Assembly (NCBI RefSeq): GCF_000186865.1
Contig: NW_008705569.1
Coordinates: forward strand, 749,307 to 813,306
Direction of reading: 5' to 3'
From: Aureococcus anophagefferens
Taxonomy: Eukaryota; Sar; Pelagophyceae; Pelagomonadales; Pelagomonadaceae
Length of the DNA: 64,000 nucleotides
Part shown: positions 4,021-62,170 of the stretch, in pieces
How positions within the stretch are numbered: position 1 is the stretch's first letter
How the letters are laid out: every line of letters starts with the position of its first letter
Position numbers and translations under genes: made by a program
The notes under the pieces: generated by a model
Database searches by the model: none
What the model saw: the letters and a program-made list of their open reading frames with translations, nothing else
What the model was told of the DNA's origin: nothing

Positions 4021-4137
4021 CGTCGCATCACGGCGCAGCGGTCTCATGTTGCCTCTCTCAGAGCACCATCGTGAAGGGGAGATCGAGAGCACCAGCGACG
4101 GCGTCGCGACGGCACCGAGCGCTCGGCGCGCGACGCG

Positions 4138-4953: not shown

Positions 4954-5033
4954 CGGGAGATCGGGGGCATACACGGGGTCGCTGCGCGCCGGGGCGGGAG
5001 ACTTGGGCGCCCGGGCCGCGGGGCGCGCGGCGT

Positions 5034-30357: not shown

Positions 30358-33300
30358 TTAGGGGGGGACCTTGAGCTGCGACGCGCGGTTCTCGGCGGCG
30401 CGCACCCGCTTGAGGTTCGCCGCGGTCCGGGCGGCGTCGCGCTCCGACTGGTCGGCCCACTTGCTTGCGAGGACGCGCCGGCCCTCCGCGCGAAGCGCGC
30501 GCCTCCTTTCCGCGACCGGGACGGCCGCCCCGTGCTGCCCGGCCTTGAGCTGCGCCGCTTGTTTCTCGGCGACGTGCAGCCGTTTGAGGTTCGCGACCGA
30601 AGTCCGGGGTGCGTCGCGCTCCGCTCGCTCGGCCCTCTTGCCTTCCAGGCTGCGCATGCCCTCGGCTCGGAGCGCCCGTTTCTCTTCCTCGACAGCGAGG
30701 ACCGCAAGCTCCTCCTGCCCGGCCTTCAGCTGTGCCGATTCTTCCTCGGCGACGCGCGGCCGCTCGGGCCTCGCGACGGACGCCGTAGTCGAGGAGGTTT
30801 CGAGGTGCGCCTGCTCGGCCCACGTGCTAGGCTCGACGCGCTGGGCCTTCGCTCGGATCGCGCGCCTCCTTCTTTCCGCGGGCGAGAGGCTCGCCTCCTG
30901 CTCGATCTTGAGCTGCGGCGCTTCCGCCTTGGCGACGCGCAGCCCCTCGCGGCTCGCGACAGACGCAGAAAGATCGTCATCGTTGGCCTTGAGCTGTGCT
31001 GATTGGGTGACGCACGGCCGCTCAGGCCTCGCGACGGACGCCGTAGTCGAGGAGGCTTCGAGGTGCGCCTGCTCGGCCCACGTGCTATCCTCGACGCGCT
31101 TGGCCTTCGCTCGGAGCGCACGCCTCCTTTCCGCGACCGAGAGGCTCGCCTCCTCCTGCTCGGTCTTGAGCTGCGGCGCTTCCGCCTTGGCGACGCGCGG
31201 CCCCTTGCGGCTCGCGACAGACGCAGAGAGATCGTCATCCTCGGCATTGAGCTGTGCTGATTGTTCCTCGGTGACGCGCGGCCGCTCGGGCCTCGCGACG
31301 GACGCCGCGGTCGAGGAGGTTTCGAGGTGCGCCTGCTCGGCCCACTTGCTATCCTCGACGCGCTGGGCCTTCGCTCGGATCGCGCGCCTCCTTCTTTCCG
31401 CGGCCGAGAGATTCGCCTCCTGCTCGGTCTCGAGCTGCGGCGCTTCCGCCTTGGCGACGCGCAGCCCCTCGCGGCCCGTGACAGACGCCGCGGCCGGGAG
31501 GGGCGCCTCCTGCTCCGTCGTAACCACTTGTTCCTCGGCGACGCGCAGCCGCTCGTGCCTCGCGACGGACGCCGTAGTCGAGGATGTTTCGAGGTGCGCC
31601 TGCTCGGCCCATTTGCTATCCACGACGCGCTGGGCCTTCGCTCGGAGCGCGCGCCTCCTTCTTTCCGCGGGCGAGAGGCTCGCCTCCTGCTCAGTCTCGA
31701 GCTGCGGCGCTTCCGGCTCGGCGACACGCAGCAATTCGAGGCTCGCGACAGACGCCGCGACCGGAAGGGGCGCCTCCTGCTCCGTCGTGACCACTTGTTC
31801 CTCGGTGACGCACGACCGCTCGAGGCTCGCGACGGACGCCGCGGTCCAGGCGGCTTCGCGCTCCGCCTGCTCGGTCCACTTGCTTTCCAGGACGCGGATG
31901 CCCTCCGCTCGGAGCGATCGCGTGTCGACCTTGGCCGGGAGGGGCGCCTCCTGCTCCGTCGTGACGGCTTGTTCCTCGGCGACGCGCTGCTGCTCGAAGA
32001 GCACCTCTCGCTCGGCCTCGAGCTGCGCCGCTTCCGCCTCGGCGACGCGCGCCGCCTCCGCCTCGGCGACGCGCACCCGCTCGAGGCTCGCGACGGACGC
32101 CGCGGTCCAGGCCGCTTCGCGCTCCGCCTGCTCGGACCACCGGCCCTCCAAGCTGCGCATACCCTCGGCTCGGAGCGCGCGCCGCTCCTCCTCGCCGGCG
32201 AAGAACGCCTCTTGCTCGGCCTTGAGCCGCGCCGCCTCCGCCTCGGCGACGCGCACCCGCTCGAGGCTCGCGACGGACGCCGCGGTCCAGGCGGCTTCGC
32301 GCTCCGCCTGCTCGGACCACTCGCCCTCCAAGCTGCGCATGCCCTCGGCTCGGAGCGCGCGCCGCTCCTCCTCGCCGGCGAAGAGCGCCTCTTGCTCGGC
32401 CTTGAGCCGCGCCGCCTCCGCCTCGGCGACGCGCACCCGCTCGAGGCTCGCGACGGACGCCGCGGTCCAGGCGGCTTCGCGCTCCGCCTGCTCGGTCCAC
32501 TGGCCCTCCAAGCTGCGCATGCCCTCGGCTCGGAGCGCGCGCCGCTCCTCCTCGCCGGCGAAGAGCGCCTCTTGCTCGGCCTTGAGCCGCGCCGCCTCCG
32601 CCTCGGCGACGCGCACCCGTTCGAGGCTCGCGACGGACGCCGCGGTCCAGGCGGCTTCGCGCTCCGCCTGCTCGGACCACTCGCCCTCCAAGCTGCGCAT
32701 GCCCTCGGCTCGGAGCGCGCGCCGCTCCTCCTCGCCGGCGAAGAGCGCCTCTTGCTCGGCCTTGAGCCGCGCCGCCTCCGCCTCGGCGACGCGCACCCGT
32801 TCGAGGCTCGCGACGGACGCCGCGGTCCAGGCGGCTTCGCGCTCCGCCTGCTCGGTCCACTGGCCCTCCAAGCTGCGCATGCCCTCGGCTCGGAGCGCGC
32901 GCCGCTCCTCCTCGCCGGCGAAGAGCGCCTCTTGCTCGGCCTTGAGCCGCGCCGCCTCCGCCTCGGCGACGCGCACCCGTTCGAGGCTCGCGACGGACGC
33001 CGCGGTCCAGGCGGCTTCGCGCTCCGCCTGCTCGGTCCACTGGCCCTCCAAGCTGCGCATGCCCTCGGCTCGGAGCGCGCGCCGCTCCTCCTCGCCGGCG
33101 AAGAGCGCCTCTTGCTCGGCCTTGAGCCGCGCCGCCTCCGCCTCGGCGACGCGCACCCGTTCGAGGCTCGCGACGGACGCCGCGGTCCAGGCGGCTTCGC
33201 GCTCCGCCTGCTCGGACCACTCGCCCTCCAAGCTGCGCATGCCCTCGGCTCGGAGCGCGCGCCGCTCCTCCTCGCCGGCGAAGAGCGCCTCTTGCTCGGC

Positions 33301-36300
33301 CTTGAGCCGCGCCGCCTCCGCCTCGGCGACGCGCACCCGTTCGAGGCTCGCGACGGACGCCGCGGTCCAGGCGGCTTCGCGCTCCGCCTGCTCGGACCAC
33401 TCGCCCTCCAAGCTGCGCATGCCCTCGGCTCGGAGCGCGCGCCGCTCCTCCTCGCCGGCGAAGAGCGCCTCTTGCTCGGCCTTGAGCCGCGCCGCCTCCG
33501 CCTCGGCGACGCGCACCCGCTCGAGGCTCGCGACGGACGCCGCGGTCCAGGCCGCTTCGCGCTCCGCCTGCTCGGTCCACTCGCCCTCCAAGCTGCGCAT
33601 GCCCTCGGCTCGGAGCGCGCGCCGCTCCTCCTCGCCGGCGAAGAGCGCCTCTTGCTCGGCCTTGAGCCGCGCCGCTTCCGCCTCGGCGACGCGCACCCGC
33701 TCGAGGCTCGCGACGGACGCCGCGGTCCAGGCGGCTTCGCGCTCCGCCTGCTCGGTCCATTGGCCCTCCAAGCTGCGCATGCCCTCGGCTCGGAGCGCGC
33801 GCCGCTCCTCCTCGCCGGCGAAGAGCGTCTCTTGCTCGGCCTTGAGCCGCGCCGCTTCCGCCTCGGCGACGCGCACCCGCTCGAGGCTCGCGACGGACGC
33901 CGCGGTCCAGGCGGCTTCGCGCTCCGCCTGCTCGGACCACTCGCCCTCCAAGCTGCGCATGCCCTCGGCTCGGAGCGCGCGCCGCTCCTCCTCGCCGGCG
34001 AAGAGCGCCTCTTGCTCGGCCTTGAGCCGCGCCGCCTCCGCCTCGGCGACGCGCACCCGCTCGAGGCTCGCGACGGACGCCGCGGTCCAGGCGGCTTCGC
34101 GCTCCGCCTGCTCAGTCCACTTGCTTTCCAGGACTCGCTGGCCCTCCGCTCGAAGCGATCGCGTATCGTCCTCGGCCGGGAAAGGCGCCTCCTGCTCGAT
34201 TGTGGTCCATGAATGGGGGCTCGATTCTGGTGTCCGAAGATGTCGCGTGCGGCGGCCGGCGAGGAAGCGCTCACCGTCCGCTCGGAGCGATAGCCTCTTC
34301 TCCTCGGCAGGGAACAACTGCGGCGCTTCCTCGTCGGAGACGCGCAGCTGCTCGAGGCTTGCGACGTACGCGGCGAACCAGGCGGCTTCGCGCTCCGCCT
34401 GCTCGGCCCCCTTGCTTTCCAGGACTCGCTGGCCCTCCGCCCGGAGCGATCGCGTGTCGACCTCGGCCGGGAGAGGCGCCTCCTGCTCCGTCGTGACCGC
34501 TTCCTCCTCGGCGACGCGCAGCTGCTCGAGGTTCGCGGCGGACGCCGCGGTCCAGGCGGCTTCGCGCTCGGCCTGCTCGGCCCACTTGCTTTCGAGGACG
34601 CGCTCGCCCTCCGCTCGGAGCGATCGCGTGTCGACCTCGGCGGGCGCGGCGGGAGACGCCGCCGCCGAGCCGGAGAGCCAGTCGGGGGGCGCCTCCTGCT
34701 CCGTCGCGACAGCTTCCGCCTCGGCGACGCGCAGCTGCTCGAGGTTCGCGACGGACGCCGCGGTCCAGGCGGCTTCGCGCTCGGCCTGCTCGGCCCACTT
34801 GCTTTCGAGGACGCGCTCGCCCTCCGCTCGGAGCGATCGCGTGTCGACCTCGGCGGGCGCGGCGGAAGACGCCGCCGCCGAGCCGGAGAGCCAGTCGGGG
34901 GGCGCCTCCTGCTCCGTCGCGACAGCTTCCGCCTCGGCGACGCGCAGCTGCTCGAGGTTCGCGACGGACGCCGCGGTCCAGGCGGCTTCGCGCTCGGCCT
35001 GCTCGGCCCACTTGCTTTCGAGGACGCGCTCGCCCTCCGCTCGGAGCGATCGCGTGTCGACCTCGGCGGGTGCGGCGGAAGACGCCGCCGCCGAGCCGGA
35101 GAGCCAGTCGGGGGGCGCCTCCTGCTCCGTCGCGACAGCTTCCGCCTCGGCGACGCGCAGCTGCTCGAGGTTCGCGACGGACGCCGCGGTCCAGGCGGCT
35201 TCGAGCTCGGCGTGCTCGGCCCACTTGCTTTCGAGGACGCGCTGGACCTCCGCTCGGAGCGATCGCGTGCCGACGTCAGCCGGGAGAGGCGCCTCCTGCT
35301 CCGTCATGACCGCTTCCTCCTCGGCGACGCGCTGCTGCTCGAAGAGCGCCTCTTGCTCGGCCTTGAGCCGCGCCGCTTCCGCCTCGGCGACGCGCACCGC
35401 TTCCGCCTCGGCGACGCGCACGCGCTCGAGGCTCGCGACGGACGCCGCGGTCCAGGCCGCTTCGCGCTCCGCCTGCTCGGCCCACTCGCTTTCCAGGACG
35501 CGCTCGCCCTCCGCTCGGAGCGATCGCGTGTCGACCTTGGCCGGGAGGGGCGCCTCCTGCTCCGTCGTGACCGCTTGTTCCTCGGTGACGCGCAGCTGCT
35601 CGAAGAGCGCCTCTTGCTCGGCCTTGAGCCGCGCCGCTTCCGCCTCGGCGACGCGCACCGCTTCCGCCTCGGCGACGCGCACGCGCTCGAGGCTCGCGAC
35701 GGACGCCGCGGTCCAGGCCGCTTCGAGCTCGGCGTGCTCGGCCCACTTGCTTTCGAGGACGCGCTGGACCTCCGCTCGGAGCGATCGCGTGCCGACGTCA
35801 GCCGGGAGAGGCGCCTCCTGCTCCGTCATGACCGCTTCCTCCTCGGCGACGCGCTGCTGCTCAAAGAGCGCCTCTCGCTCGGCCTCGAGCTGCGCCGCTT
35901 CCGCCTCGGCGACGCGCGCCGCCTCCGCCTCGGCGACGCGCACCCGTTCGAGGCTCGCGACGGACGCCGCGGTCCAGGCGGCTTCGCGCTCCGCCTGCTC
36001 CGTCCACTCGCCCTCCAAGCTGCGCATGCCCTCGGCCCGGAGCGCGCGTCGCTCCTCTTCGCCAGCGAAGAGCGACTCTTGCTCGGCCTTGAGCCGCGCC
36101 GCTTCCGCCTCGGCGACGCGCACGCGCTCGAGGCTGGCGACCGAAGCCGTGCGCAAGGCGTCGCGCTCCGTCTGCTCGGCCGACTCGTCGTCCAGGACAC
36201 GCTCGCCCTCCGCTTTGAGCGCGCCTTTCTCGGCTTCGATTGCGAGGAGTGCCTCCTGCTCGGCCAGCCGCTCGAGGCTGGCTAGCGAAGCAGCACGCCA

Positions 36301-38148
36301 GGCGGCTTCGCGCTCCGCCTGCTCGGCCGCCTTCGCCGCGAGAACGCGCTCACGCTCCGCCCGGCGCACGCGCTGCCCTTCCTCGGCAGCGAGGAGCTGC
36401 GCCGCTTCCTGCTCGGCGACGCGCAGCCGCTCGAGGCTGGCTACCGAGGCCGCGCGCAAGGTGGCTTCGCGCCCCGCCTGCTCGGCCGACTTGTTGTCCA
36501 GGATTTCCTCGACAGCAGGGAGCGCCTCCTGCCCGGCCTTGAGCTGCGTAGCTTCTTCCTCGGCGACGCGCGCCCGCTCGAGGCTCGCGACGGACGCCGC
36601 GGTCCAGGCGGCTTCGCGCTCCGCCTGCTCAGCCCACTTGCTTTCGAGGACGCGCTGGCCCTCCGCTCGGAGCGATCGCGTGTCGACCTCGGCCGGGAGA
36701 GGCGCCTCCTGCTCGGCCTTGAGCTGTGCCGCTTGCTCCTCGGCGACGCGCTTCTCCGCTTCGAGTTCGAGGAGCGCCTTCTGTTCGGCCTTGAGCTTTG
36801 CCGCTTCCTCCTCGGCGACGCGCTGCCGCTGAAGGCTGGCTAGCCCCAGTTCGGCCGCCTTCTGCGCGAGGATGCCGCCGAGGCCGCCGTCACCGAGCGG
36901 CGGCGCGCGCTTGTCGAGGGGGTCCTCGACGACGATCGCGGGCTCGTCCGCCGCGTCCTCGACGATGATCGCGGGCTCGTCCGCCACGAACTCGTCGAGC
37001 TGTCCCGCTCCTTCCTCGACGATGCGCTTCGCTTCTTCCTCGGCGACGCGCTGCCGCTGGAGGCTGGCCAAGCCCAGTTCGGCCGCCTTCCGCCGAGCGG
37101 CGCCGTTCGCTTGCTCATCGGCGACGCGCTGCCGCTGGAGGCTGGCCAACCCCGGCTCGGTCGTCTTCTGCTGAGCGGTTTGCTTCACTTCCTCCTCGGC
37201 GACGCGTTGCCGCTGTAGGCTGGCTAAGCCCGGCTCGGCCGTCTTCTGCTGAGCGGCGCCGTTCGCTTCCTCCTCGGCGACGCGTTGCCGCTGGAGGCTG
37301 GCTAAGCCCAGTTCGGCCGTCTTCTGCTGAGCGGCGCCGTTCGCTTCCTCCTCGGCGACGCGCTGCCGCTGGAGGCTGGCTAGCCCCAGCGCGGCCGCCT
37401 TCTGCCGAGCGGTGCCCCCCGCTTCCTCATCGGCGACGCGCTGCCGCTGGAGGCTGGCCAAGCCCAGTTCGGCCGTCTTCTGCTGAGCGGCGCCGTTTGC
37501 TTCCTCCTCGGCGACGCGCCGCCGCTGGAGGCTGGTGAGCCCGAGGCCGCCGCCGTCGCGCGGCGCCGAGCGCTCGTCGAGGGGGTCCGCCGCGACCTCG
37601 TCGAGCGCGCCGGCGAGCGGCGGCACGTAGGCGACGCGTTCGCTGAGCGGCGACACGTAGGCCTTGGCGTTCTCAAGCCGCTTGAGGTTCGTGCCCGTGG
37701 CGGCGACCCACGCGGCCTCCCGGGAGGCCCGTCCGACGCGCCGAGCCTCGGATCGGAGCGCGGCCGCGGCCGCCCGCGCCTCGAGCTCGGCCTCGCTGGT
37801 CTCGAAGTCGAGGGAGGCGGCCTTGACGGGCTCGACGGATTCGACGACCGGCGCGAGGGCGTCGCGGTCGAGCCACGCGGCGTCCCGGAGCCGCGTCTCG
37901 CGGTCGAGCGCCGGCTGCTCGGCGACGGCGTCGCCGCGCCGCGGGAAGGGCCCCGGCTCGCGACCCGTCCGGAGGCGCTGGAGCAGCTGCATTGCGCCCG
38001 ACTCCGTCCCAAAGACTTTGAAGGGGACCTCGGCCGCTCTCTCGAACGTGGAGAGGACCCCGCGCAGGGCCGTCGCGCCCAGCTCCGACGGCGGCGTCGT
38101 GAAGGCGGCGACCGCCGTGAGGAGCGCGCACAACCGCAGGCAACCCAT
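30358..38148 (-). CDS. Giant repeat protein with plastid-type presequence
   Basis: 2596 residues without an intron. The N-terminus MGCLRLCALLTAVAAFTTPP is a signal peptide followed by Phe, matching a bipartite plastid presequence. A unique domain (about 100-180) contains REAAWVAATGTNLKRLENAK and YVPPLAG, homologous to the N-terminal domain of the next genes. Then come at least three repeat classes: a 26-residue unit with GLASLQRQRVAEEE, a 71-residue unit with PPDWLSGSAAAS, and eleven near-identical 60-residue units with EREAAWTAASVASLERV. Composition is Glu/Ala/Arg/Leu-rich, so most would be long helix or coiled coil. The C-terminus is basic (AANLKRVRAAENRASQLK). No enzyme domain is seen. The antisense frame is also open over most of its length, but it has no presequence and mirrors codon bias. 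Confidence 0.75.
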   Translation of the reverse strand: MGCLRLCALLTAVAAFTTPPSELGATALRGVLSTFERAAEVPFKVFGTESGAMQLLQRLRTGREPGPFPRRGDAVAEQPALDRETRLRDAAWLDRDALAPVVESVEPVKAASLDFETSEAELEARAAAAALRSEARRVGRASREAAWVAATGTNLKRLENAKAYVSPLSERVAYVPPLAGALDEVAADPLDERSAPRDGGGLGLTSLQRRRVAEEEANGAAQQKTAELGLASLQRQRVADEEAGGTARQKAAALGLASLQRQRVAEEEANGAAQQKTAELGLASLQRQRVAEEEANGAAQQKTAEPGLASLQRQRVAEEEVKQTAQQKTTEPGLASLQRQRVADEQANGAARRKAAELGLASLQRQRVAEEEAKRIVEEGAGQLDEFVADEPAIIVEDAADEPAIVVEDPLDKRAPPLGDGGLGGILAQKAAELGLASLQRQRVAEEEAAKLKAEQKALLELEAEKRVAEEQAAQLKAEQEAPLPAEVDTRSLRAEGQRVLESKWAEQAEREAAWTAASVASLERARVAEEEATQLKAGQEALPAVEEILDNKSAEQAGREATLRAASVASLERLRVAEQEAAQLLAAEEGQRVRRAERERVLAAKAAEQAEREAAWRAASLASLERLAEQEALLAIEAEKGALKAEGERVLDDESAEQTERDALRTASVASLERVRVAEAEAARLKAEQESLFAGEEERRALRAEGMRSLEGEWTEQAEREAAWTAASVASLERVRVAEAEAARVAEAEAAQLEAEREALFEQQRVAEEEAVMTEQEAPLPADVGTRSLRAEVQRVLESKWAEHAELEAAWTAASVASLERVRVAEAEAVRVAEAEAARLKAEQEALFEQLRVTEEQAVTTEQEAPLPAKVDTRSLRAEGERVLESEWAEQAEREAAWTAASVASLERVRVAEAEAVRVAEAEAARLKAEQEALFEQQRVAEEEAVMTEQEAPLPADVGTRSLRAEVQRVLESKWAEHAELEAAWTAASVANLEQLRVAEAEAVATEQEAPPDWLSGSAAASSAAPAEVDTRSLRAEGERVLESKWAEQAEREAAWTAASVANLEQLRVAEAEAVATEQEAPPDWLSGSAAASSAAPAEVDTRSLRAEGERVLESKWAEQAEREAAWTAASVANLEQLRVAEAEAVATEQEAPPDWLSGSAAASPAAPAEVDTRSLRAEGERVLESKWAEQAEREAAWTAASAANLEQLRVAEEEAVTTEQEAPLPAEVDTRSLRAEGQRVLESKGAEQAEREAAWFAAYVASLEQLRVSDEEAPQLFPAEEKRLSLRADGERFLAGRRTRHLRTPESSPHSWTTIEQEAPFPAEDDTRSLRAEGQRVLESKWTEQAEREAAWTAASVASLERVRVAEAEAARLKAEQEALFAGEEERRALRAEGMRSLEGEWSEQAEREAAWTAASVASLERVRVAEAEAARLKAEQETLFAGEEERRALRAEGMRSLEGQWTEQAEREAAWTAASVASLERVRVAEAEAARLKAEQEALFAGEEERRALRAEGMRSLEGEWTEQAEREAAWTAASVASLERVRVAEAEAARLKAEQEALFAGEEERRALRAEGMRSLEGEWSEQAEREAAWTAASVASLERVRVAEAEAARLKAEQEALFAGEEERRALRAEGMRSLEGEWSEQAEREAAWTAASVASLERVRVAEAEAARLKAEQEALFAGEEERRALRAEGMRSLEGQWTEQAEREAAWTAASVASLERVRVAEAEAARLKAEQEALFAGEEERRALRAEGMRSLEGQWTEQAEREAAWTAASVASLERVRVAEAEAARLKAEQEALFAGEEERRALRAEGMRSLEGEWSEQAEREAAWTAASVASLERVRVAEAEAARLKAEQEALFAGEEERRALRAEGMRSLEGQWTEQAEREAAWTAASVASLERVRVAEAEAARLKAEQEALFAGEEERRALRAEGMRSLEGEWSEQAEREAAWTAASVASLERVRVAEAEAARLKAEQEAFFAGEEERRALRAEGMRSLEGRWSEQAEREAAWTAASVASLERVRVAEAEAARVAEAEAAQLEAEREVLFEQQRVAEEQAVTTEQEAPLPAKVDTRSLRAEGIRVLESKWTEQAEREAAWTAASVASLERSCVTEEQVVTTEQEAPLPVAASVASLELLRVAEPEAPQLETEQEASLSPAERRRRALRAKAQRVVDSKWAEQAHLETSSTTASVARHERLRVAEEQVVTTEQEAPLPAAASVTGREGLRVAKAEAPQLETEQEANLSAAERRRRAIRAKAQRVEDSKWAEQAHLETSSTAASVARPERPRVTEEQSAQLNAEDDDLSASVASRKGPRVAKAEAPQLKTEQEEASLSVAERRRALRAKAKRVEDSTWAEQAHLEASSTTASVARPERPCVTQSAQLKANDDDLSASVASREGLRVAKAEAPQLKIEQEASLSPAERRRRAIRAKAQRVEPSTWAEQAHLETSSTTASVARPERPRVAEEESAQLKAGQEELAVLAVEEEKRALRAEGMRSLEGKRAERAERDAPRTSVANLKRLHVAEKQAAQLKAGQHGAAVPVAERRRALRAEGRRVLASKWADQSERDAARTAANLKRVRAAENRASQLKVPP
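32041..34120 (-). repeat. 180-bp tandem repeat array, about 11 units
   Basis: The period is exactly 180 bp (60 codons). The phrase CTTGAGCCGCGCCGCCTCCG recurs at 32221, 32401, 32581 and so on to 34021. Units differ at a few bases, for instance GGACCACTCG versus GGTCCACTGG, so the array is strongly homogenised. Each unit encodes one Trp-bearing helical repeat and MRSLEG. Confidence 0.95.
34583..35221 (-). repeat. 213-bp tandem repeat, three units
   Basis: CACTTGCTTTCGAGGACGCG recurs at 34583, 34796, 35009 and 35222. Each 71-codon unit contains PPDWLSGSAAAS, the same sticker-like peptide found in the neighbouring repeat proteins. Confidence 0.92.
36832..37540 (-). repeat. 78-bp tandem repeat, about eight units
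   Basis: GAGGCTGGC(C/T)AAGCCC recurs at a 78-bp spacing (37061, 37139, 37217, 37295, 37373, 37451, 37529) with an earlier outlying copy near 36832. It encodes a 26-residue unit LASLQRQRVAEEEANGAAQQ followed by a short variable end. Confidence 0.9.
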
Positions 38149-38346
38149 GCCTCTGGATGCCTCTGGGCGCTCTAAGTGTATATGACGACACCCATACAAC
38201 GCGGCGGAACCGGCCGCGCAGTTGCCATGGCGGAGCTCAAGCGCCGCGGAATTTGCGAACACCGCCTTCTTATTCTGACGTCGATTCGCAAGTTGTAGTT
38301 CAACCACGCGATGGGCTCGAGCGCTCGCTGTTGCTTCTGGACAATC

Positions 38347-41300
38347 TCAGTTAGTAAACGACGTCCATGAATGGGGGCTCGATCGTGGTGTCCGAAGCTG
38401 TCGCGTGCGGCGGCCGGGGCCCTCGAGGAAGCCGTGGTGCTTCGCTCGGAGCGACAGCCGCTTCGCCTGGGCAGGAGAGAGCTGCGGCGCTTGCGCCTCG
38501 GCGACGGCGGCGATGTGGGACGCGAAGTGGTCCTTGTTGCCGCCGACGGCGGCCGTATGGGACGCAAAGTGGTCCATGTTGCCGCTGGCGGCGGCCTTGG
38601 CCGGGGCGGCCTTGGCCGAGGCGGCCGGGGCCGCGGGGGCAGCCGCGGCGGCGGCAGTGCCGGAGAGCCAGGCGGCTCTGCGCCCCGCCTGGTCGGCCCA
38701 CGTGGCACGGTCGTTGCCCGAGAAGCCAACCAAGGCGGGGGCCGCCGCGGCCGTGGGGGGCGCCGCGGCTGCGGGGGCGGCCTTGGCGGGCGCTGCAGTG
38801 GCCGTCTTGGCGACGGCCGCGCGCGTGGGGGCGGCCGCGGCGGCGGCGGTGCCGGAGAGCCAGGCGTCTCTACGCTGCGACTGCTCGGCCCACGTGCCGC
38901 GGTCCATGCCCTTGAACCCAACCAGGGCGGGAGCCGCCGCGACCGCGGGGGCGGCCGCGGCCGCGGGGGCTGCCGCGGCCGCGGGGGGTGCCGCGGCCGC
39001 GGGGGCAGCGGAAGACGCCGCCGCGGAGCCGGAGAGCCACTCGGGCCCGGACGCGGCGCCCATGGACTTGAAGTCGCGGTCCTTGCCCTTGAACGAGCCC
39101 GCCGTGGACGCGAAGTGGTCCATCGAGCCGCTGGCGGCCTTGGCCGGGGCAGCCGTGGCCGCCGGGGCGGCCGCGGGGGTGGTGGAGCCGGAGAGCCACT
39201 CGGGCTCGGACGCGGCGCCCATGGCCTTGAAGTCGCGGTCCTTGCCCTTGAACGAGCCCGCAGTGGACGCAAAGTGGTCCATCGAGCCGCTGGCGGCCTT
39301 GGCCGGGGCGGCTGTGGCCGCCGGGGCGGCCGCGGGGGTGGTGGAGCCGGAGAGCCACTCGGGCTCGGACGCGGCGCCCATGGACTTGAAGTCGCGGTCC
39401 TTGCCCTTGAACGAGCCCGCCGTGGACGCGAAGTGGTCCATCGAGCCGGTCGAGGCGGCCGGGGACGCGGCAGCAGGGGCGGCGGCCGCAGGGGCGGCCG
39501 AGCCGGAGAGCCACTCGGGGCCGGACGCGGCGCCCATGGCCTTGAAGTCGCGGTCCTTGCCCTTGAACGAGCCCGCCGTGGACGCGAAGTGGTCCATGTT
39601 GCCCGTGGAGGCCGCCGGGGACGCGGCAGCAGGGGCGGCGGCCGCAGGTGCGGCCGAGCCGGAGAGCCACTCAGGGCCGGACGCGGCGCCCATGGACTTG
39701 AAGTCGCGGTCCTTGCCCTTGAACGAGCCCGCCGTGGACGCGAAGTGGTCCATGTTGCCGCTGGCGGCGGCCTTGGCCGGCGCGGCTGTGGCCGCCGGGG
39801 CGGCCGCCGGGGCGGCGGAGCCGGAGAGCCACTCGGGGCCGGACGCGGCGCCCATGGCCTTGAAGTCGCGGTCCTTGCCCTTGAACGAGCCCGCCGTGGA
39901 CGCAAAGTGGTCCATCGAGCCGGTGGAGGCCGCCGGGGACGAGGCCGCCGGGGCGGCGGCCGCGGGGGCGGCGGAGCCGGAGAGCCACTCGGGCTCGGAC
40001 GCGGCGCCCATGGCCTTGAAGTCGCGGTCCTTGCCCTTGAACGAGCCGGCCGTGGACGCGAAGTGGTCCATGTTGCCGCTGGCGGCGGCCTTGGCCGGCG
40101 CGGCTGTGGCCGCCGGGGCGGCCGCCGGGGCGGCGGAGCCGGAGAGCCACTCGGGGCCGGACGCGGCGCCCATGGCCTTGAAGTCGCGGTCCTTGCCCTT
40201 GAACGAGCCCGCCGTGGACGCGAAGTGGTCCATCGAGCCGGTGGAGGCGGCCGGGGACGCGGCAGCAGGGGCGGCGGCCGCGGGGGCGGCGGAGCCGGAG
40301 AGCCACTCGGGGCCGGACGCGGCGCCCATGGCCTTGAAGTCGCGGTCCTTGCCCTTGAACGAGCCCGCCGTGGACGCGAAGTGGTCCATCGAACCGGTGG
40401 AGGCGGCCGGGGACGCGGCCGCAGGGGCGGCGGCCGCAGGGGCGGCCGAGCCGGAGAGCCACTCAGGGCCGGACGCGGCGCCCATGGACTTGAAGTCGCG
40501 GTCCTTGCCCTTGAACGAGCCCGCCGTGGACGCAAAGTGGTCCATCGAGCCGGTGGCGGCCTTGGCGGGGGCCGCCGTGGCGGGGGGCGCGGAAGACGCC
40601 GCCGCCGAGCCGGAGAGCCACTCGGGCCCGGACGCGGCGCCCATGGACTTGAAGTCGCGGTCCTTGCCCTTGAACGAGCCCGCCGTGGACGCGAAGTGGT
40701 CCATGTTGCCGGAGGCTGCGGCCTTGGCCGGCGCGGCCGCGGGGGCGACGGGCGCCGCCGTGGCGAAGGGGGTGCCCGCGAGCCAGTCGGGGCCGGACGC
40801 GGCGCCCATGGACTTGAAGTCGCGGTCCTTGCCCTTGAAGGAGCCCGCCGTGGACGCGAAGTGGTCCATGTTGCCCGTGGAAGCGGCCGGGGACGCGGCA
40901 GCAGGGGCGACGGCCGCAGGGGCGGCCGAGCCGGAGAGCCACTCGGGGCCGGACGCGGCGCCCATGGCCTTGAAGTCGCGGTCCTTGCCCTTGAACGAGC
41001 CCGCCGTGGACGCGAAGTGGTCCATCGAACCGGTGGAGGCGGCCGGGGACGCGGCAGCAGGGGCGGCGGCCGCGGGGGCGGCGGAGCCGGAGAGCCACTC
41101 GGGGCCGGACGCGGCGCCCATGGCCTTGAAGTCGCGGTCCTTGCCCTTGAACGAGCCCGCCGTGGACGCGAAGTGGTCCATGTTGCCGCTGGCGGCGGCC
41201 TTGGCCGGCGTGGCTGTGGCCGCCGGGGCGGCCGCCGGGGCGGCGGAGCCGGAGAGCCACTCAGGGCCGGACGCGGCGCCCATGGCCTTGAAGTCGCGGT

Positions 41301-41892
41301 CCTTGCCCTTGAACGAGCCCGCCGTGGACGCGAAGTGGTCCATCGAGCCGCTGGTGGCGGCCGCGGCCGGGGCGGCCGCTGCGACGCGCTCCTGCTCCAT
41401 GCTCGCGAGCGCTTGCTCCGCGGCCGACTGCTCGCCGAGGCCGGCGACGTTGCCCGCGAGCCAGGCCGGCGCGGACGAGCCGCCCACGGCCTTGGGCTTC
41501 TCTTGCGCGAAGGTGTCCAGGGACCCGGCGGCGCGGCCACCGAGCGGCGGCACGTAGCCCTTGACGTCCTCGGCGGCCTTGCCCGCCGCGAAGTTCTTCT
41601 CGTTCTTGAGGCGCTCGAGGTTCGCGACCTTGACCGCGATCCACGCGGCCTCCCACGCGGCCTGCTCGGCCTCCGCGTCGTTCACGAGGCGGCCGTCGGC
41701 GCGGATCGCGTCGAGGGCCGCCCGCGCGGCGACCTCGGCCTCGTCGTTGGACTGACCGTCAAGTCCAGCGACTGACTGCTGTTCTTCGAGCCACGCGGCG
41801 CGCAGGCCCTCGAGGGCCCGTTTCGTCGTCGGCGCGTTGTTCTGGAAGGCGGCGACGCCTGCGCTGAGCGCGCACAGTCGCAGCCAGGCCAT
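38347..41892 (-). CDS. Repeat protein A: 15 DFK-MG-WLSG modules with plastid-type presequence
   Basis: 1181 residues. MAWLRLCALSAGVAAFQNN is a signal peptide then Phe. An N-terminal helical domain follows (AWEAAWIAVKVANLERLKNE, then GYVPPLGG). Fifteen modules of about 50-55 residues come next. Each has a constant part of some 35 residues (MDHFASTAGSFKGKDRD, FK, A/S, MGAASGPEWLSG) and a variable Ala/Pro/Thr linker. Two units of another type follow (TWA-Q--RR-AWLSGTAAA), then two degenerate MDHFAS remnants and a C-terminal segment shared with the giant gene. The constant part is charged with one Trp, and the linkers look disordered. This resembles spacer-sticker proteins that crosslink a partner. 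Function unknown; no enzyme domain. Confidence 0.75.
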   Translation of the reverse strand: MAWLRLCALSAGVAAFQNNAPTTKRALEGLRAAWLEEQQSVAGLDGQSNDEAEVAARAALDAIRADGRLVNDAEAEQAAWEAAWIAVKVANLERLKNEKNFAAGKAAEDVKGYVPPLGGRAAGSLDTFAQEKPKAVGGSSAPAWLAGNVAGLGEQSAAEQALASMEQERVAAAAPAAAATSGSMDHFASTAGSFKGKDRDFKAMGAASGPEWLSGSAAPAAAPAATATPAKAAASGNMDHFASTAGSFKGKDRDFKAMGAASGPEWLSGSAAPAAAAPAAASPAASTGSMDHFASTAGSFKGKDRDFKAMGAASGPEWLSGSAAPAAVAPAAASPAASTGNMDHFASTAGSFKGKDRDFKSMGAASGPDWLAGTPFATAAPVAPAAAPAKAAASGNMDHFASTAGSFKGKDRDFKSMGAASGPEWLSGSAAASSAPPATAAPAKAATGSMDHFASTAGSFKGKDRDFKSMGAASGPEWLSGSAAPAAAAPAAASPAASTGSMDHFASTAGSFKGKDRDFKAMGAASGPEWLSGSAAPAAAAPAAASPAASTGSMDHFASTAGSFKGKDRDFKAMGAASGPEWLSGSAAPAAAPAATAAPAKAAASGNMDHFASTAGSFKGKDRDFKAMGAASEPEWLSGSAAPAAAAPAASSPAASTGSMDHFASTAGSFKGKDRDFKAMGAASGPEWLSGSAAPAAAPAATAAPAKAAASGNMDHFASTAGSFKGKDRDFKSMGAASGPEWLSGSAAPAAAAPAAASPAASTGNMDHFASTAGSFKGKDRDFKAMGAASGPEWLSGSAAPAAAAPAAASPAASTGSMDHFASTAGSFKGKDRDFKSMGAASEPEWLSGSTTPAAAPAATAAPAKAASGSMDHFASTAGSFKGKDRDFKAMGAASEPEWLSGSTTPAAAPAATAAPAKAASGSMDHFASTAGSFKGKDRDFKSMGAASGPEWLSGSAAASSAAPAAAAPPAAAAAPAAAAAPAVAAAPALVGFKGMDRGTWAEQSQRRDAWLSGTAAAAAAPTRAAVAKTATAAPAKAAPAAAAPPTAAAAPALVGFSGNDRATWADQAGRRAAWLSGTAAAAAAPAAPAASAKAAPAKAAASGNMDHFASHTAAVGGNKDHFASHIAAVAEAQAPQLSPAQAKRLSLRAKHHGFLEGPGRRTRQLRTPRSSPHSWTSFTN
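39000..41360 (-). repeat. Tandem module array of repeat protein A
   Basis: Fifteen copies of a DNA module of about 150-165 bp, recognised by CGGTCCTTGCCCTTGAACGA. Constant parts are nearly identical while linkers vary in length and in Ala/Pro/Lys content. Spacing is always a multiple of three, so the frame is preserved. Confidence 0.93.
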
Positions 41893-42828
41893 TCGTAGCT
41901 GTCCCGAAGCGGATGCAGAACGGAACACCTTCAAGCCTGAGCGGTCGATGACATCAGTCACAAATCGTACGTACGCGTTGCCGCAAAGTTGCCCTCAACC
42001 TGGTGTCTCTGTCACGAGCTGCGCGGCTCGGGGGGCACCCACCGACGCGCAATGGCGCAAGAGAGTCGCCTTGCGGCTATTCGACACAAACATCGGCCAC
42101 AACCAGAGGGCGTGCAGTCCCACATGAGCGACGGGGTCGTCGCCGCGGTGGTCGCCGAAGTGCTTCCCGCTGGCGGTTGGTCAACGTGGCAGGCGCCGTT
42201 TCTCGGTTGGTTTATACGGCTATATTAGCATGGTCGGGTGGGGGGTCCACGCTAAGGGTACAGGGGGGGGGTGCCGCGCGCTCGGGCCTGAGGCCGTCGC
42301 CACGCGGACCTGGGCCGTCTCGGGAGGTGGGCGTCGAAGGCGGCGATCGAAGGTGGCGGCGTGGGAGCGATTTTCTCGTACCTACACCGAGAGCCAGGAC
42401 GGCGTCGAAGCGCCGCCCTTGGCTTTGGCGCCGTCTTTGCGGCCGACCGTTTTTTTGAGCCAGGCCAGCGCGCCCGCTCCCGAGGCGGAGGAGGAGTCGC
42501 CCCAGGCGGCGGACGCGAGCGACTGCGTCGCCGCAGGAGCGGACGAAGCCGGCGCGGACGAACTCCAGTCGCGGTCCTTGCCGACGAAGGCGCCCGCCGT
42601 CGACGCGAAGTGATCCATCGAGCCGCCAGCGGGAGCGGCCGCGGCCGCGGGGGCCGCCGCAGGGGCGACCGCGGCCGAAGGGGCGGCGGCCGCGGGGGCG
42701 GCCGAGCCGGAGAGCCAGTCGGGGCCGGACGAGGCGCCCATGGACTTGAAGTCGCGGTCCTTGCCCTTGAACGAGCCCGCCGTGGACGCGAAGTGGTCCA
42801 TGTTGCCCGTGGAGGCCGCCGGGGACGC
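41402..42828. repeat. Left copy of a 1.4-kb perfect duplication (partner 43615-45041)
   Basis: The right half of gene A's 5' end, the whole intergenic region and the 3' end of the next gene repeat at an offset of 2213 bp. I saw no mismatch in the lines compared. The first difference found is at 42829 (G) against 45042 (A). After that, the copies remain similar but differ by single bases and by 15-bp linker units. Confidence 0.85.
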
Positions 42829-44105
42829 GACCGCGGCCGCGGGGGCGGCGGCCGCGGGGGCGGCCGAGCCGGAGAGCCAGTCGGGGCCGGACGAGGCGCC
42901 CATGGACTTGAAGTCGCGGTCCTTGCCCTTGAACGAGCCCGCCGTGGACGCGAAGTGGTCCATGTTGCCCGTGGAGGCCGCCGGGGACGCGACCGCGGCC
43001 GCGGGGGCGGCGGCCGCGGGGGCGGCCGAGCCGGAGAGCCAGTCGGGGCCAGACGAGGCGCCCATGGACTTGAAGTCGCGGTCCTTGCCCTTGAACGAGC
43101 CCGCCGTGGACGCGAAGTGGTCCATGTTGCCCGTGGAGGCCGCCGGGGACGCGACCGCGGCCGCGGGGGCGGCCGAGCCGGAGAGCCAGCTGGGGCCGGA
43201 AGCGGCGCCCATGGACTTGAAGTCGCGGTCCTTGCCCTTGAACGAGCCCGCCGTGGACGCGAAGTGGTCCATGTTGCCCGTGGAGGCCGCCGGGGACGCG
43301 ACCGCGGCCGCGGGGGCGGCGGCCGCGGGGGCGGCCGAGCCGGAGAGCCAGTCGGGGCCAGACGAGGCGCCCATGGACTTGAAGTCGCGGTCCTTGCCCT
43401 TGAACGAGCCCGCCGTGGACGCGAAGTGGTCCATGTTGCCCGTGGAGGCCGCCGGGGACGCGACCGCGGCCGCGGGGGCGGCCGAGCCGGAGAGCCAGCT
43501 GGGGCCGGAAGCGGCGCCCATGGACTTGAAGTCGCGGTCCTTGCCCTTGAACGAGCCCGCCGTGNNNNNNNNNNNNNNNNNNNNNNNNNNNNNNNNNNNN
43601 NNNNNNNNNNNNNNCTCGCGAGCGCTTGCTCCGCGGCCGACTGCTCGCCGAGGCCGGCGACGTTGCCCGCGAGCCAGGCCGGCGCGGACGAGCCGCCCAC
43701 GGCCTTGGGCTTCTCTTGCGCGAAGGTGTCCAGGGACCCGGCGGCGCGGCCACCGAGCGGCGGCACGTAGCCCTTGACGTCCTCGGCGGCCTTGCCCGCC
43801 GCGAAGTTCTTCTCGTTCTTGAGGCGCTCGAGGTTCGCGACCTTGACCGCGATCCACGCGGCCTCCCACGCGGCCTGCTCGGCCTCCGCGTCGTTCACGA
43901 GGCGGCCGTCGGCGCGGATCGCGTCGAGGGCCGCCCGCGCGGCGACCTCGGCCTCGTCGTTGGACTGACCGTCAAGTCCAGCGACTGACTGCTGTTCTTC
44001 GAGCCACGCGGCGCGCAGGCCCTCGAGGGCCCGTTTCGTCGTCGGCGCGTTGTTCTGGAAGGCGGCGACGCCTGCGCTGAGCGCGCACAGTCGCAGCCAG
44101 GCCAT
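42382..44105 (-). CDS. Repeat protein B, interrupted by the assembly gap (possibly an artefact)
   Basis: The 5' part (44105-43615) is base-identical to the start of gene A over the stretch compared: same presequence, same helical domain. The 3' part (43564-42382) is six DFKSMG-WLSG modules and the C-terminal LASAAWGDSSSASGAGALAW end shared with gene C. Fifty Ns lie between. The frame cannot be tested because the gap length is nominal. It may be a real third gene or the product of an unmerged overlap between two contigs. Confidence 0.4.
43565..43614. other. Assembly gap, 50 Ns
   Basis: A run of exactly 50 unknown bases, a conventional placeholder length. It lies at the point where the module array of gene B meets the N-terminal domain, next to a long perfect duplication. 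Confidence 0.99.
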
Positions 44106-44594
44106 TCGTAGCTGTCCCGAAGCGGATGCAGAACGGAACACCTTCAAGCCTGAGCGGTCGATGACATCAGTCACAAATCGTACGTACGCGTTGCCGCAAA
44201 GTTGCCCTCAACCTGGTGTCTCTGTCACGAGCTGCGCGGCTCGGGGGGCACCCACCGACGCGCAATGGCGCAAGAGAGTCGCCTTGCGGCTATTCGACAC
44301 AAACATCGGCCACAACCAGAGGGCGTGCAGTCCCACATGAGCGACGGGGTCGTCGCCGCGGTGGTCGCCGAAGTGCTTCCCGCTGGCGGTTGGTCAACGT
44401 GGCAGGCGCCGTTTCTCGGTTGGTTTATACGGCTATATTAGCATGGTCGGGTGGGGGGTCCACGCTAAGGGTACAGGGGGGGGGTGCCGCGCGCTCGGGC
44501 CTGAGGCCGTCGCCACGCGGACCTGGGCCGTCTCGGGAGGTGGGCGTCGAAGGCGGCGATCGAAGGTGGCGGCGTGGGAGCGATTTTCTCGTAC

Positions 44595-46523
44595 CTACAC
44601 CGAGAGCCAGGACGGCGTCGAAGCGCCGCCCTTGGCTTTGGCGCCGTCTTTGCGGCCGACCGTTTTTTTGAGCCAGGCCAGCGCGCCCGCTCCCGAGGCG
44701 GAGGAGGAGTCGCCCCAGGCGGCGGACGCGAGCGACTGCGTCGCCGCAGGAGCGGACGAAGCCGGCGCGGACGAACTCCAGTCGCGGTCCTTGCCGACGA
44801 AGGCGCCCGCCGTCGACGCGAAGTGATCCATCGAGCCGCCAGCGGGAGCGGCCGCGGCCGCGGGGGCCGCCGCAGGGGCGACCGCGGCCGAAGGGGCGGC
44901 GGCCGCGGGGGCGGCCGAGCCGGAGAGCCAGTCGGGGCCGGACGAGGCGCCCATGGACTTGAAGTCGCGGTCCTTGCCCTTGAACGAGCCCGCCGTGGAC
45001 GCGAAGTGGTCCATGTTGCCCGTGGAGGCCGCCGGGGACGCAACCGCGGCCGCGGGGGCGGCGGCCGCGGGGGCGGCCGAGCCGGAGAGCCAGTCGGGGC
45101 CAGACGAGGCGCCCATGGACTTGAAGTCGCGGTCCTTGCCCTTGAACGAGCCCGCCGTGGACGCGAAGTGGTCCATGTTGCCCGTGGAGGCCGCCGGGGA
45201 CGCGACCGCGGCCGCGGGGGCGGCGGCCGCGGGGGCGGCCGAGCCGGAGAGCCAGTCGGGGCCAGACGAGGCGCCCATGGACTTGAAGTCGCGGTCCTTG
45301 CCCTTGAACGAGCCCGCCGTGGACGCGAAGTGGTCCATGTTGCCCGTGGAGGCCGCCGGGGACGCGACCGCGGCCGCGGGGGCGGCCGAGCCGGAGAGCC
45401 AGCTGGGGCCGGAAGCGGCGCCCATGGACTTGAAGTCGCGGTCCTTGCCCTTGAACGAGCCCGCCGTGGACGCGAAGTGGTCCATGTTGCCCGTGGAGGC
45501 CGCCGGGGACGCGACCGCGGCCGCGGGGGCGGCGGCCGCGGGGGCGGCCGAGCCGGAGAGCCAGTCGGGGCCGGACGAGGCGCCCATGGACTTGAAGTCG
45601 CGGTCCTTGCCCTTGAACGAGCCCGCCGTGGACGCGAAGTGGTCCATGTTGCCCGTGGAGGCCGCCGGGGACGCGACCGCGGCCGCGGGGGCGGCGGCCG
45701 CGGGGGCGGCCGAGCCGGAGAGCCAGTCGGGGCCAGACGAGGCGCCCATGGACTTGAAGTCGCGGTCCTTGCCCTTGAACGAGCCCGCCGTGGACGCGAA
45801 GTGGTCCATGTTGCCCGTGGAGGCCGCCGGGGACGCGACCGCGGCCGCGGGGGCGGCCGAGCCGGAGAGCCAGTCGGGGCCGGACGAGGCGCCCATGGAC
45901 TTGAAGTCGCGGTCCTTGCCCTTGAACGAGCCCGCCGTGGACGCGAAGTGGTCCATGTTGCCCGTGGAGGCCGCCGGGGACGCGACCGCGGCCGCGGGGG
46001 CGGCGGCCGCGGGGGCGGCGGAGCCGGAGAGCCAGTCGGGGCCGGACGAGGCGCCCATGGACTTGAAGTCGCGGTCCTTGCCCTTGAACGAGCCCGCCGT
46101 GGACGCGAAGTGGTCCATGTTGCCCGTGGAGGCCGCCGCGTAGGACTCGACGGCGCCCGAGACCTTGCCGCCGAGCGGCGGCACGTAGCCCTTGACCTCG
46201 ACGGCCTGGGCCGCGAAGTCCTTCTCGTTCTTCATGCGCTCGAGGTTGGCGACCGTGGCCGCGATCCACGCGGCCTCCCACGCGGCCTGCTCGGCCTCCG
46301 CGTCGAGCGCGAGGCGGCCGTCGGCGCGGATCGCGTCGAGGGCCGCCTGCGCGGCGACCTCGGCCTCGGTGCCCGACTGGCCGTACTTGCCGTCGGACCC
46401 AGTGACGGACTGCTGCTCTTCAAGCCACGCGGCGCGGAGGCTCTTGAGGGCCCCTTTCGTTTGCGGGGCGTTCTGGAAGGCGGCGACGCCCGCGCTGAGC
46501 GCGGCTACGCGTAACCAGGGCAT
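44595..46523 (-). CDS. Repeat protein C: eight DFKSMG-WLSG modules with plastid-type presequence
   Basis: 642 residues. MPWLRVAALSAGVAAFQNAP is a signal peptide then Phe. The N-terminal helical domain (LRAAWLEEQQSV, AAWEAAWIAATVANLERMKN, GYVPPLGG) is similar but not identical to that of A. Eight modules of 49 or 54 residues follow, with constant part MDHFASTAGSFKGKDRD, FKSMGASSGPDWLSG and linkers AAPAAAAPAAAVASPAAST or five residues shorter. A ninth, degenerate module leads to a C-terminal end (LASAAWGDSSSASGAGALAW, then basic KKTVGRKDGAKAKGG). Linkers are Ala/Pro only and disordered. It is the most regular member of the cluster. Confidence 0.78.
   Translation of the reverse strand: MPWLRVAALSAGVAAFQNAPQTKGALKSLRAAWLEEQQSVTGSDGKYGQSGTEAEVAAQAALDAIRADGRLALDAEAEQAAWEAAWIAATVANLERMKNEKDFAAQAVEVKGYVPPLGGKVSGAVESYAAASTGNMDHFASTAGSFKGKDRDFKSMGASSGPDWLSGSAAPAAAAPAAAVASPAASTGNMDHFASTAGSFKGKDRDFKSMGASSGPDWLSGSAAPAAAVASPAASTGNMDHFASTAGSFKGKDRDFKSMGASSGPDWLSGSAAPAAAAPAAAVASPAASTGNMDHFASTAGSFKGKDRDFKSMGASSGPDWLSGSAAPAAAAPAAAVASPAASTGNMDHFASTAGSFKGKDRDFKSMGAASGPSWLSGSAAPAAAVASPAASTGNMDHFASTAGSFKGKDRDFKSMGASSGPDWLSGSAAPAAAAPAAAVASPAASTGNMDHFASTAGSFKGKDRDFKSMGASSGPDWLSGSAAPAAAAPAAAVASPAASTGNMDHFASTAGSFKGKDRDFKSMGASSGPDWLSGSAAPAAAAPSAAVAPAAAPAAAAAPAGGSMDHFASTAGAFVGKDRDWSSSAPASSAPAATQSLASAAWGDSSSASGAGALAWLKKTVGRKDGAKAKGGASTPSWLSV
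44860..46130 (-). repeat. Tandem module array of repeat protein C
   Basis: Eight units of 162 or 147 bp; the difference is a 15-bp linker word. Constant parts are almost invariant at DNA level, and alternate units carry CAGTCGGGGCC or CAGCTGGGGCC before the Trp codon region. Confidence 0.93.
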
Positions 46524-61911: not shown

Positions 61912-62050
61912 GGGGGTCCGCGTAAGCGCATCGCAAGTATTACGACTCTGGGCGAGCCTCGATATGCGAGGATCGCGCGAAGCGGGCGACGGGCGTCGCG
62001 CCCGTCGCCGGCGGTGTGATTTCCTGCGATGCGAGATGCCGGCGGCCCGA

Positions 62051-62170
62051 GTCGGCGAGGACGCGAAGGGCCAGCCGGACCGGTCCGCGAGTCGGCGAGG
62101 ACGCGAAGGGGCAGCCGGACCGATCCGCGGGTCGGCTAGGACGCGAAGGGGCAGCCGGACCGGTCCGCGT
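62051..62170. repeat. Three tandem 40-bp repeats across the end of the beta-helix gene
   Basis: GTCGGCGAGGACGCGAAGGG begins units at 62051 and 62091; the third at 62131 reads GTCGGCTAGG. Units end CGGTCCGCG or CGATCCGCG. The G-to-T difference in unit 3 creates the stop codon of the minus-strand gene (62138-62136). Confidence 0.9.

Follow-up and report, generated by a model that had tools for sequence, protein, structure and literature searches.

Only a few algae have a known Rubisco linker, and these proteins are usually restricted to one lineage and differ in sequence from one lineage to another (PMC13159521). A common Rubisco-binding motif may guide assembly across the algal tree, with sequences that are lineage-specific (PMC10473226). 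In the diatom linker PYCO1 the stickers for the large subunit are AAEWGSMNQ and, by similarity, ASEWASMNT, whose Trp sits in a hydrophobic pocket of RbcL (residues Y89, D92, F102, F104, L361, F366 and F482 of the large subunit); the protein has an isoelectric point (pI) of 10.03, and aldolase and similar enzymes are also present in the diatom pyrenoid matrix (PMC10288592). In Chlamydomonas the stickers of EPYC1 bind the small subunit via helices, and a Rubisco-binding motif is common to many pyrenoid proteins (PMC10473226). CsLinker of Chlorella was found with the FLIPPer screen, which looks for repeated elements 20–120 residues apart (PMC11570498). A pyrenoid is labelled in an electron-microscopy figure of the pelagophyte Aureococcus (PMC10720644), and the Aureococcus genome contains an LCIB-type gene. 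Here we analyze a stretch of 64,000 nucleotides from Aureococcus anophagefferens (contig NW_008705569.1, positions 749,307 to 813,306, hereafter the window) that carries three adjacent minus-strand genes, A, C and D, for long repeat proteins. Judged from their sequences, A, C and D are probably multivalent scaffold proteins of the plastid stroma; the best specific reading, which we hold only tentatively, is that A and C are Rubisco linkers of the pyrenoid. No pelagophyte linker, and no description of this family, was found among the titles and abstract starts listed from the open-licence literature, in agreement with the sequence-only reading of this DNA.

Comparison with described Rubisco linkers

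Like PYCO1, A and C appear to be ochrophyte plastid repeat proteins with short Trp-centred stickers and a repeat unit of similar order (~80 residues in PYCO1). They differ from it in their Ala/Pro-rich linkers and in their 8 and 17 modules, whereas PYCO1 has 6 small-subunit stickers. With EPYC1 and the Chlamydomonas motif system they share regularly spaced stickers on a repeat linker and one class of motif that recurs on other proteins (PMC10473226); the mode of binding of EPYC1 sets it apart, and a sequence relation between it and A or C was not found. The spacer-sticker architecture that had been proposed for A and C is borne out, their conserved Trp residues lying 49–64 residues apart and thus inside the range of 20–120 residues used by FLIPPer and shared by CsLinker, which is a fit to the published spacing criterion of the screen. 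There is no known sequence relation to CsLinker, from which A and C also differ in that their disorder is only partly supported and that they are candidates from sequence.

The likeness to known linkers had been described as architectural and not at the level of sequence, which is nearly right, one overlap having been found: modules with PEWLSG or PDWLSG share E(D)-W-x-S with the large-subunit stickers of PYCO1. Of the 252 Trp residues in 16 proteins of the family, 48 lie in the pattern [DE]WxS, while 200 shuffles give a mean of 2.33 and a maximum of 6. The 48 are largely tandem copies and not independent, the pattern being present in only 11 of the 142 distinct Trp contexts. Since the overlap involves three positions and was spotted after the fact, it is a lead and not a test. 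The M and N positions of the PYCO1 stickers are not shared by the DFK modules, and in the contexts printed Asn stands four residues after Trp only in APAWLAGN of C, in the head of an apparent gene B treated below, and in the third relative at locus L027. Sequence homology to PYCO1 was not found among the matches listed from a set of 5.8 billion proteins. A search by the PYCO1 motifs for a PYCO1 chain gave no match. Nor was its small-subunit sticker KWSPRGG found in the Aureococcus assembly with a DNA pattern for K(AAG)-W-x-P-R-G-G, from which the Q form and the AAA codon were left out: the single match (KWRPRGG) equals the count for the reversed control.

Trp-module arrays of genes A and C

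The genes and arrays of the locus are as follows.

44595..46523, minus strand: gene A, a 642-residue repeat protein with a plastid-type presequence, a helical head and 8 Trp modules
44878..46138, minus strand: module array of A, tandem units of 147 or 162 bp, FKGKDRDFKSMGASSGPDWLSG stickers and Ala/Pro linkers
38347..41892, minus strand: gene C, an 1181-residue repeat protein of pI 9.12 with a head and 17 modules
39023..41376, minus strand: module array of C, tandem units of ~156 bp
30358..38148, minus strand: gene D, a 2596-residue acidic repeat protein of pI 4.84 with a plastid-type presequence
30720..36011, minus strand: helical-type repeat arrays of D, units of 60, 71 and 87 residues

Each of the three genes is a long single-frame open reading frame that opens with ATG and is preceded by an in-frame stop. 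Protein A contains eight modules of the type FKGKDRDFKSMGA-SGP-WLSG, spaced by 49 or 54 residues, and ends in STPSWLSV. Protein C contains 15 DFK/WLSG modules and two variants (FKGMDRGTWAEQSQRRDAWLSG and FSGNDRATWADQAGRRAAWLSG), spaced by 52–64 residues; in the variants the middle reads TWAEQSQRR or TWADQAGRR, while the positions of F-G-DR and WLSG are unchanged. The linkers in both proteins consist chiefly of Ala, Pro, Ser and Thr. The constant charged part with one Trp and the Ala/Pro linker that the sequence-only reading had described for these modules are as stated, but the spacing is wider (49–64 residues instead of about 49–55). Examples of modules are GNMDHFASTAGSFKGKDRDFKSMGASSGPDWLSGSAAP, APAWLAGN and EQAERRAAWLSG.

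That the arrays are more than chance follows from their Tandem Repeats Finder scores, which reach 3580 in C and 2431 in A. When the units are cut from Trp to Trp, other residues being left free, comparisons between units of equal length give 44, 28 and 159 differences at codon positions 1, 2 and 3 in C (13 of 17 units) and 8, 4 and 16 in A (all 7 units). This excess at the third position in both genes indicates that the protein frame is under constraint. In a set of 35 distinct units from five genes, anchored on WL alone, the entropy is 0.8 bits at the following Ser and 0.6 bits at the Gly, compared with means of 1.22 bits for 28 upstream positions and 1.54 bits for 16 linker positions.

Presequences and targeting

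The three proteins start with M...ALSAGVAA/F or M...ALLTAVAA/F, where the slash marks the presumed cleavage site; the presequence of A reads MPWLRVAALSAGVAA/FQNAPQTKGALKSLRA. Most heads of the family follow the pattern M-hydrophobic-AxAA/F-(Q/T/K)-x-P...ALR[AS]. In stramenopiles, F, W, Y or L directly after the cleavage site (position +1) is a mark of plastid import. Cleavage sites were assigned by eye and compared with control presequences from the same genome (49.05 Mb in 86 contigs). Among the 18 family loci, two of which (L022 and L061) are unreadable, residue +1 is F in 12 of 16 and L in four (L013, L025, L029 and L062). The light-harvesting proteins, with 16 readable presequences at 30 loci (75 matches in all), give F 11, L 4 and W 1, whereas the secreted C1 peptidases give Q, A, K and A at the four clear ones of six loci (29 matches in all), a cut one residue later, leading to W, being also possible for one of them (L069). 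As in the light-harvesting presequences, F or L at +1 is followed by a TALR-type segment in most heads. The plastid-type presequence proposed for the cluster is thus upheld by the match with light-harvesting proteins and the difference from secreted peptidases, and we infer from it that A, C and D are located in the stroma.

Gene D and the shared helical head

The common helical domain noted before is present in all three proteins as a head element, EAAW-A---NLERL (REAAWVAATGTNLKRL in the version of D). Long module arrays had been attributed to all the genes; those of A and C are as described, while D is an acidic array of the helical head element. It contains 24 occurrences of AAWxA[AS], head included, and just three WLSG stickers. 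Its Glu/Ala-rich array (18% Glu) has a unit of 60 residues in 11 of 21 spacings, and by composition D would be helical rather than a flexible spacer array. A profile of the heads, which contains D's own head, aligns with the D unit at an hhalign probability of 96.2, and local alignment of the unit with seven heads gives z values of 3.9–8.6 against shuffles; by these alignments the repeat unit of D is an amplified head element. Differences at codon positions 1, 2 and 3 amount to 574, 246 and 560 between D units picked by residue pattern, so that the excess at the third position is weak here.

Searches against solved structures gave a best E value of 0.68 for the head profile and no match for the module profile or the repeats of D. 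The Pfam matches on A and D lie inside the repeats and were rejected as spurious: CRF-BP_N exceeds its cut-off by 0.8 bit, and AllH, DUF2859, TKTI1 and Glyco_hydro_62 fall short of theirs.

A genome-wide family and its tagged enzymes

The sequence-only reading had seen a cluster of related genes, which it is, but the family is not confined to these 16 kb. At least 18 loci in the genome share the head, part of the head or the modules; besides A, C and D these are L013, L022–L026, three at L027, L028–L030, L061, L062 and L063. The feature that L063 has in common with the others is a YVPPLGG stretch only, and its WW-like segment is below the cut-off; L013 matches the head of D with an E value of 2.2e-9 but a composite head query only with 1.6. 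An additional weak match, L065, was obtained in the module search (E 0.016). The pI of family members includes values of 9.46 (L029), 10.94 (L030) and 11.4 (L028). Stretches of the form W-x-P-x-R..GGTYTP are present in L028–L030; we do not claim that they correspond to KWSPR/GTGYNP of PYCO1.

Several family elements are joined to enzymes. L025 (4143-5564, plus strand) encodes a methyltransferase with a head and a plastid-type presequence; Methyltransf_11 is above its cut-off and the UbiE family matches weakly. L013 (1507-2679, minus strand) is a PgsA-type phosphatidylglycerol-phosphate (PG-phosphate) synthase (TIGR00560 above cut-off), and its C-terminus carries the helical element and VPPLG. 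L062 has a YbgC-like hotdog (thioesterase) region at its end, below the cut-offs. In L029 (1658-8608, minus strand) a phosphoglucomutase-type frame (PF02880) continues in the same frame into a sticker-bearing tail of ~2000 residues, and KTL-DF-G-CEAAGVD-APL closes the enzyme part and recurs where the tail ends; its plastid-type presequence lies upstream in a different frame, from which an intron or a frame change may be deduced.

L022 (4053-5564, minus strand) is an A-like copy at a dispersed site of the same contig and differs from A in its 5' end, the presequence. L026, L027 and L061 have the head or part of it, followed by DPRDPR-type, Gln/Met-rich or Pro-rich tails with a recurrent WGNS-VP and no WLSG arrays; three relatives of this type stand in tandem on contig C21.

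In the protein set mentioned above, for which about 8000 candidates sharing 5-residue words and of similar length were scored per query, 13 of the 14 relatives listed for one query are from A. anophagefferens and one is an ENA protein, which bears out the pelagophyte origin assumed in the sequence-only reading. No named relative outside Aureococcus is among the matches listed, the others being environmental proteins. These include several relatives of L025 (P0015–P0022), which indicates that, among the matches listed, conservation extends further for the head than for the repeat arrays. The database names of some records were not borne out on scanning: no hydroxylase domain is present in those called procollagen-proline 4-dioxygenase (P0001, P0002, P0005 and P0008), and no ATPase domain in those called ATPase (P0004 and P0023). 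P0004 has a thioredoxin-like N-terminal part above the cut-off, and P0006, named as a ubiquitin binding protein, carries the identical precomputed domain. Several of these seven records look like fused gene models.

Assembly at the locus

Between A and C the assembly has the following features.

43565..43614: assembly gap of 50 N
41402..45792: two contig ends that overlap but stand one after the other, 41402-43564 corresponding to 43615-45792
42252-44105, spanning the 50-N gap: apparent gene B, most likely an artefact of the contig-end overlap

Of the three, possibly four, adjacent minus-strand genes proposed earlier, three stand. Positions 41402-42828 are exactly identical to 43615-45041 (1427 bp, offset 2213), and this exact match opens at the first base 3' of the gap. 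Near-identity then reaches the last base before the gap (43564 corresponding to 45792); over 965 aligned positions there are 8 mismatches and a single 15-bp indel. Because this duplication has the pattern of unmerged overlapping contig ends, we consider gene B most likely an artefact and reject it as a fourth paralogue or a recombinant. A 351-bp intergenic piece has full-length matches at two places only in a genome-wide search, both within the duplicated stretch. P0001 and P0023, two further gene models of Aureococcus, have an A-type array that passes into the head of C without another head in the middle, the intervening DNA not being visible in such models. The real gene order is most likely A, C, D, with a distance between A and C of 489 bp by coordinates. 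A public gene model, AURANDRAFT_64202 (P0003), has the same head-tail make-up as gene B; no publication on it was found in the open-licence literature.

A probable stromal scaffold and candidate Rubisco linker

A plastid-imported protein in which one Trp sticker is repeated many times between spacers has the design of a cross-linker of oligomers. In the mechanism that we propose, A, C and D would be encoded in the nucleus and would enter the stroma of this pelagophyte's complex plastid. There A and C would present many near-identical short motifs (FKGKDRDFK and [DE]WLSG) on flexible Ala/Pro spacers, each motif binding weakly to one site on an abundant oligomeric partner, and such multivalent binding would cross-link the partner into a condensate. 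The likeliest partner would be Form ID Rubisco and the condensate the pyrenoid matrix, with contact possibly through the large-subunit pocket that receives the EWxS sticker of PYCO1. D, a long helical-repeat relative that has a few of these stickers too, could act as a rod-like tether, and heads or modules on plastid enzymes could recruit those enzymes as clients. By analogy, the tagged enzymes would parallel the Rubisco-binding motif of Chlamydomonas pyrenoid proteins, although the carriers in Aureococcus are plastid-type enzymes that may lie elsewhere in the plastid. In favor of the Rubisco reading we count these tagged enzymes, the plastid-type presequences, the sticker spacing, the constraint on the protein frame, the [DE]WxS overlap, the pyrenoid and LCIB-type gene of Aureococcus, and the apparent lineage restriction of the family among the matches listed, which is usual for linkers (PMC13159521). 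The family would extend a known kind of protein. For a bloom-forming pelagophyte it provides a testable set: candidate linkers bearing as many as 17 stickers, a candidate tether, tagged enzymes and one residue, Trp, as the target for mutation.

Several observations weigh against Rubisco as the partner, or against linkers of the PYCO1 kind. A and D are not basic (pI 6.17 and 4.84), whereas PYCO1 is strongly so. With manually entered scale values, fractions of 0.95 (A) and 0.96 (C) of the residues exceed the disorder cut-off of the TOP-IDP profile, but FoldIndex, at 0.185 and 0.177, does not call the two proteins disordered. D looks like a helical rod. The overlap with the EWxS sticker is the short one noticed post hoc above, and the fourth residue after Trp is Ser in most DFK modules as against Asn in PYCO1. 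A gene for the Rubisco large subunit was not found in this assembly.

The remaining points against it are also those that favor a stromal multivalent scaffold of another kind, for which there is an appreciable chance: the Trp modules and heads might bind each other or some other plastid partner, such as the surface of the thylakoid or envelope or clusters of enzymes, with the tagged enzymes as the real cargo. Head or modules are found on a phosphoglucomutase, a PgsA-type PG-phosphate synthase, a methyltransferase and a YbgC-like thioesterase, that is, on lipid, sugar and methyltransferase enzymes of plastid type with no obvious role in CO2 fixation, so the scaffold may organize other plastid metabolism. 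No recognized CO2-concentrating protein is among the matches of the module search that were examined, the weakest (E > 1, outside the family loci) being unread. The helical-type element common to D and the heads could moreover self-associate. On the other side, the high number of stickers in A and C would suggest an abundant multivalent partner, and the matrix of the diatom pyrenoid likewise contains enzymes, aldolase for example (PMC10288592). Should the partner not be Rubisco, the proteins would still form a multivalent scaffold family of complex plastids that is apparently undescribed, as far as our searches reach.

It is improbable that the arrays are products of repeat drift with no scaffold role, in which GC-rich minisatellite slippage would have expanded a dispensable coding segment and a cassette of presequence and head would have been copied merely as an import signal. 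The near homogeneity of the arrays within a gene and their differences between records would fit such an origin, as would the copy with a different 5' end (L022), the long open reading frames in several frames of this GC-rich genome, and the weak third-position excess in the units of D. A and C, however, do show that excess, and the stickers are better conserved than the linkers across diverged genes. Furthermore, the family element stands at the C-terminus of the PgsA-type enzyme and in mid-frame in the thioesterase, positions in which it cannot be an import signal.

It is very unlikely that the proteins are hydroxyproline-rich glycoproteins secreted to the theca, the wall or a mucilage. For such a role, linkers such as SAAPAAAAPAAAVASPAAST resemble arabinogalactan glycomodules, a prolyl 4-hydroxylase gene adjoins A, and pelagophyte cells secrete outer layers and a theca with perforations (PMC12168098). 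Against it, the +1 residue and TALRA-type segment are of the light-harvesting type and unlike C1 peptidases, the adjoining hydroxylase itself has a plastid-type presequence, and the head and modules are fused to plastid-type enzymes. The likeness to arabinogalactan and other hydroxyproline-rich glycoproteins lies in a signal peptide, Ala-Pro and Ser-Pro linkers and a nearby prolyl 4-hydroxylase, and the difference in the plastid-type presequences and enzyme fusions of the family of A and C.

The neighboring prolyl 4-hydroxylase and other features of the window

47186..48181, minus strand: prolyl 4-hydroxylase, presequence LLLLLASVAVT/FHTPIPRRPPTTLRA, 662 bp upstream of A and on the same strand

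The product of this gene was identified by a match to solved structures (E 4.7e-20) and by the Pfam 2OG-Fe(II) oxygenase domain. As its presequence is of the plastid type, the gene is no argument for secretion. The genome contains 14 loci of the prolyl 4-hydroxylase type, the neighbor of A included (15 matches, two of them adjoining), so the adjacency may be due to chance. Hydroxyproline is among the modifications of diatom Rubisco. That this Rubisco is post-translationally modified is documented (PMC10288592), and the hydroxylase might modify either Rubisco or the linkers. More speculatively, and in our view rather unlikely as a whole, the Aureococcus pyrenoid would be built with a Trp sticker code of the red lineage that evolved independently of Chlamydomonas and is shared by linkers (A, C and relatives), a tether (D) and address tags on enzymes, with the adjoining plastid hydroxylase modifying Rubisco or the linkers and so tuning their contacts.

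Elsewhere in the window, the C-terminal part of 2956-6987 (minus strand) is a second 2OG-Fe(II) oxygenase (PF13640); the start of this frame looks secretory, and L follows its presumed cleavage site. A 40-bp tandem repeat of 3.8 copies with 88% matches lies at 62048-62199.

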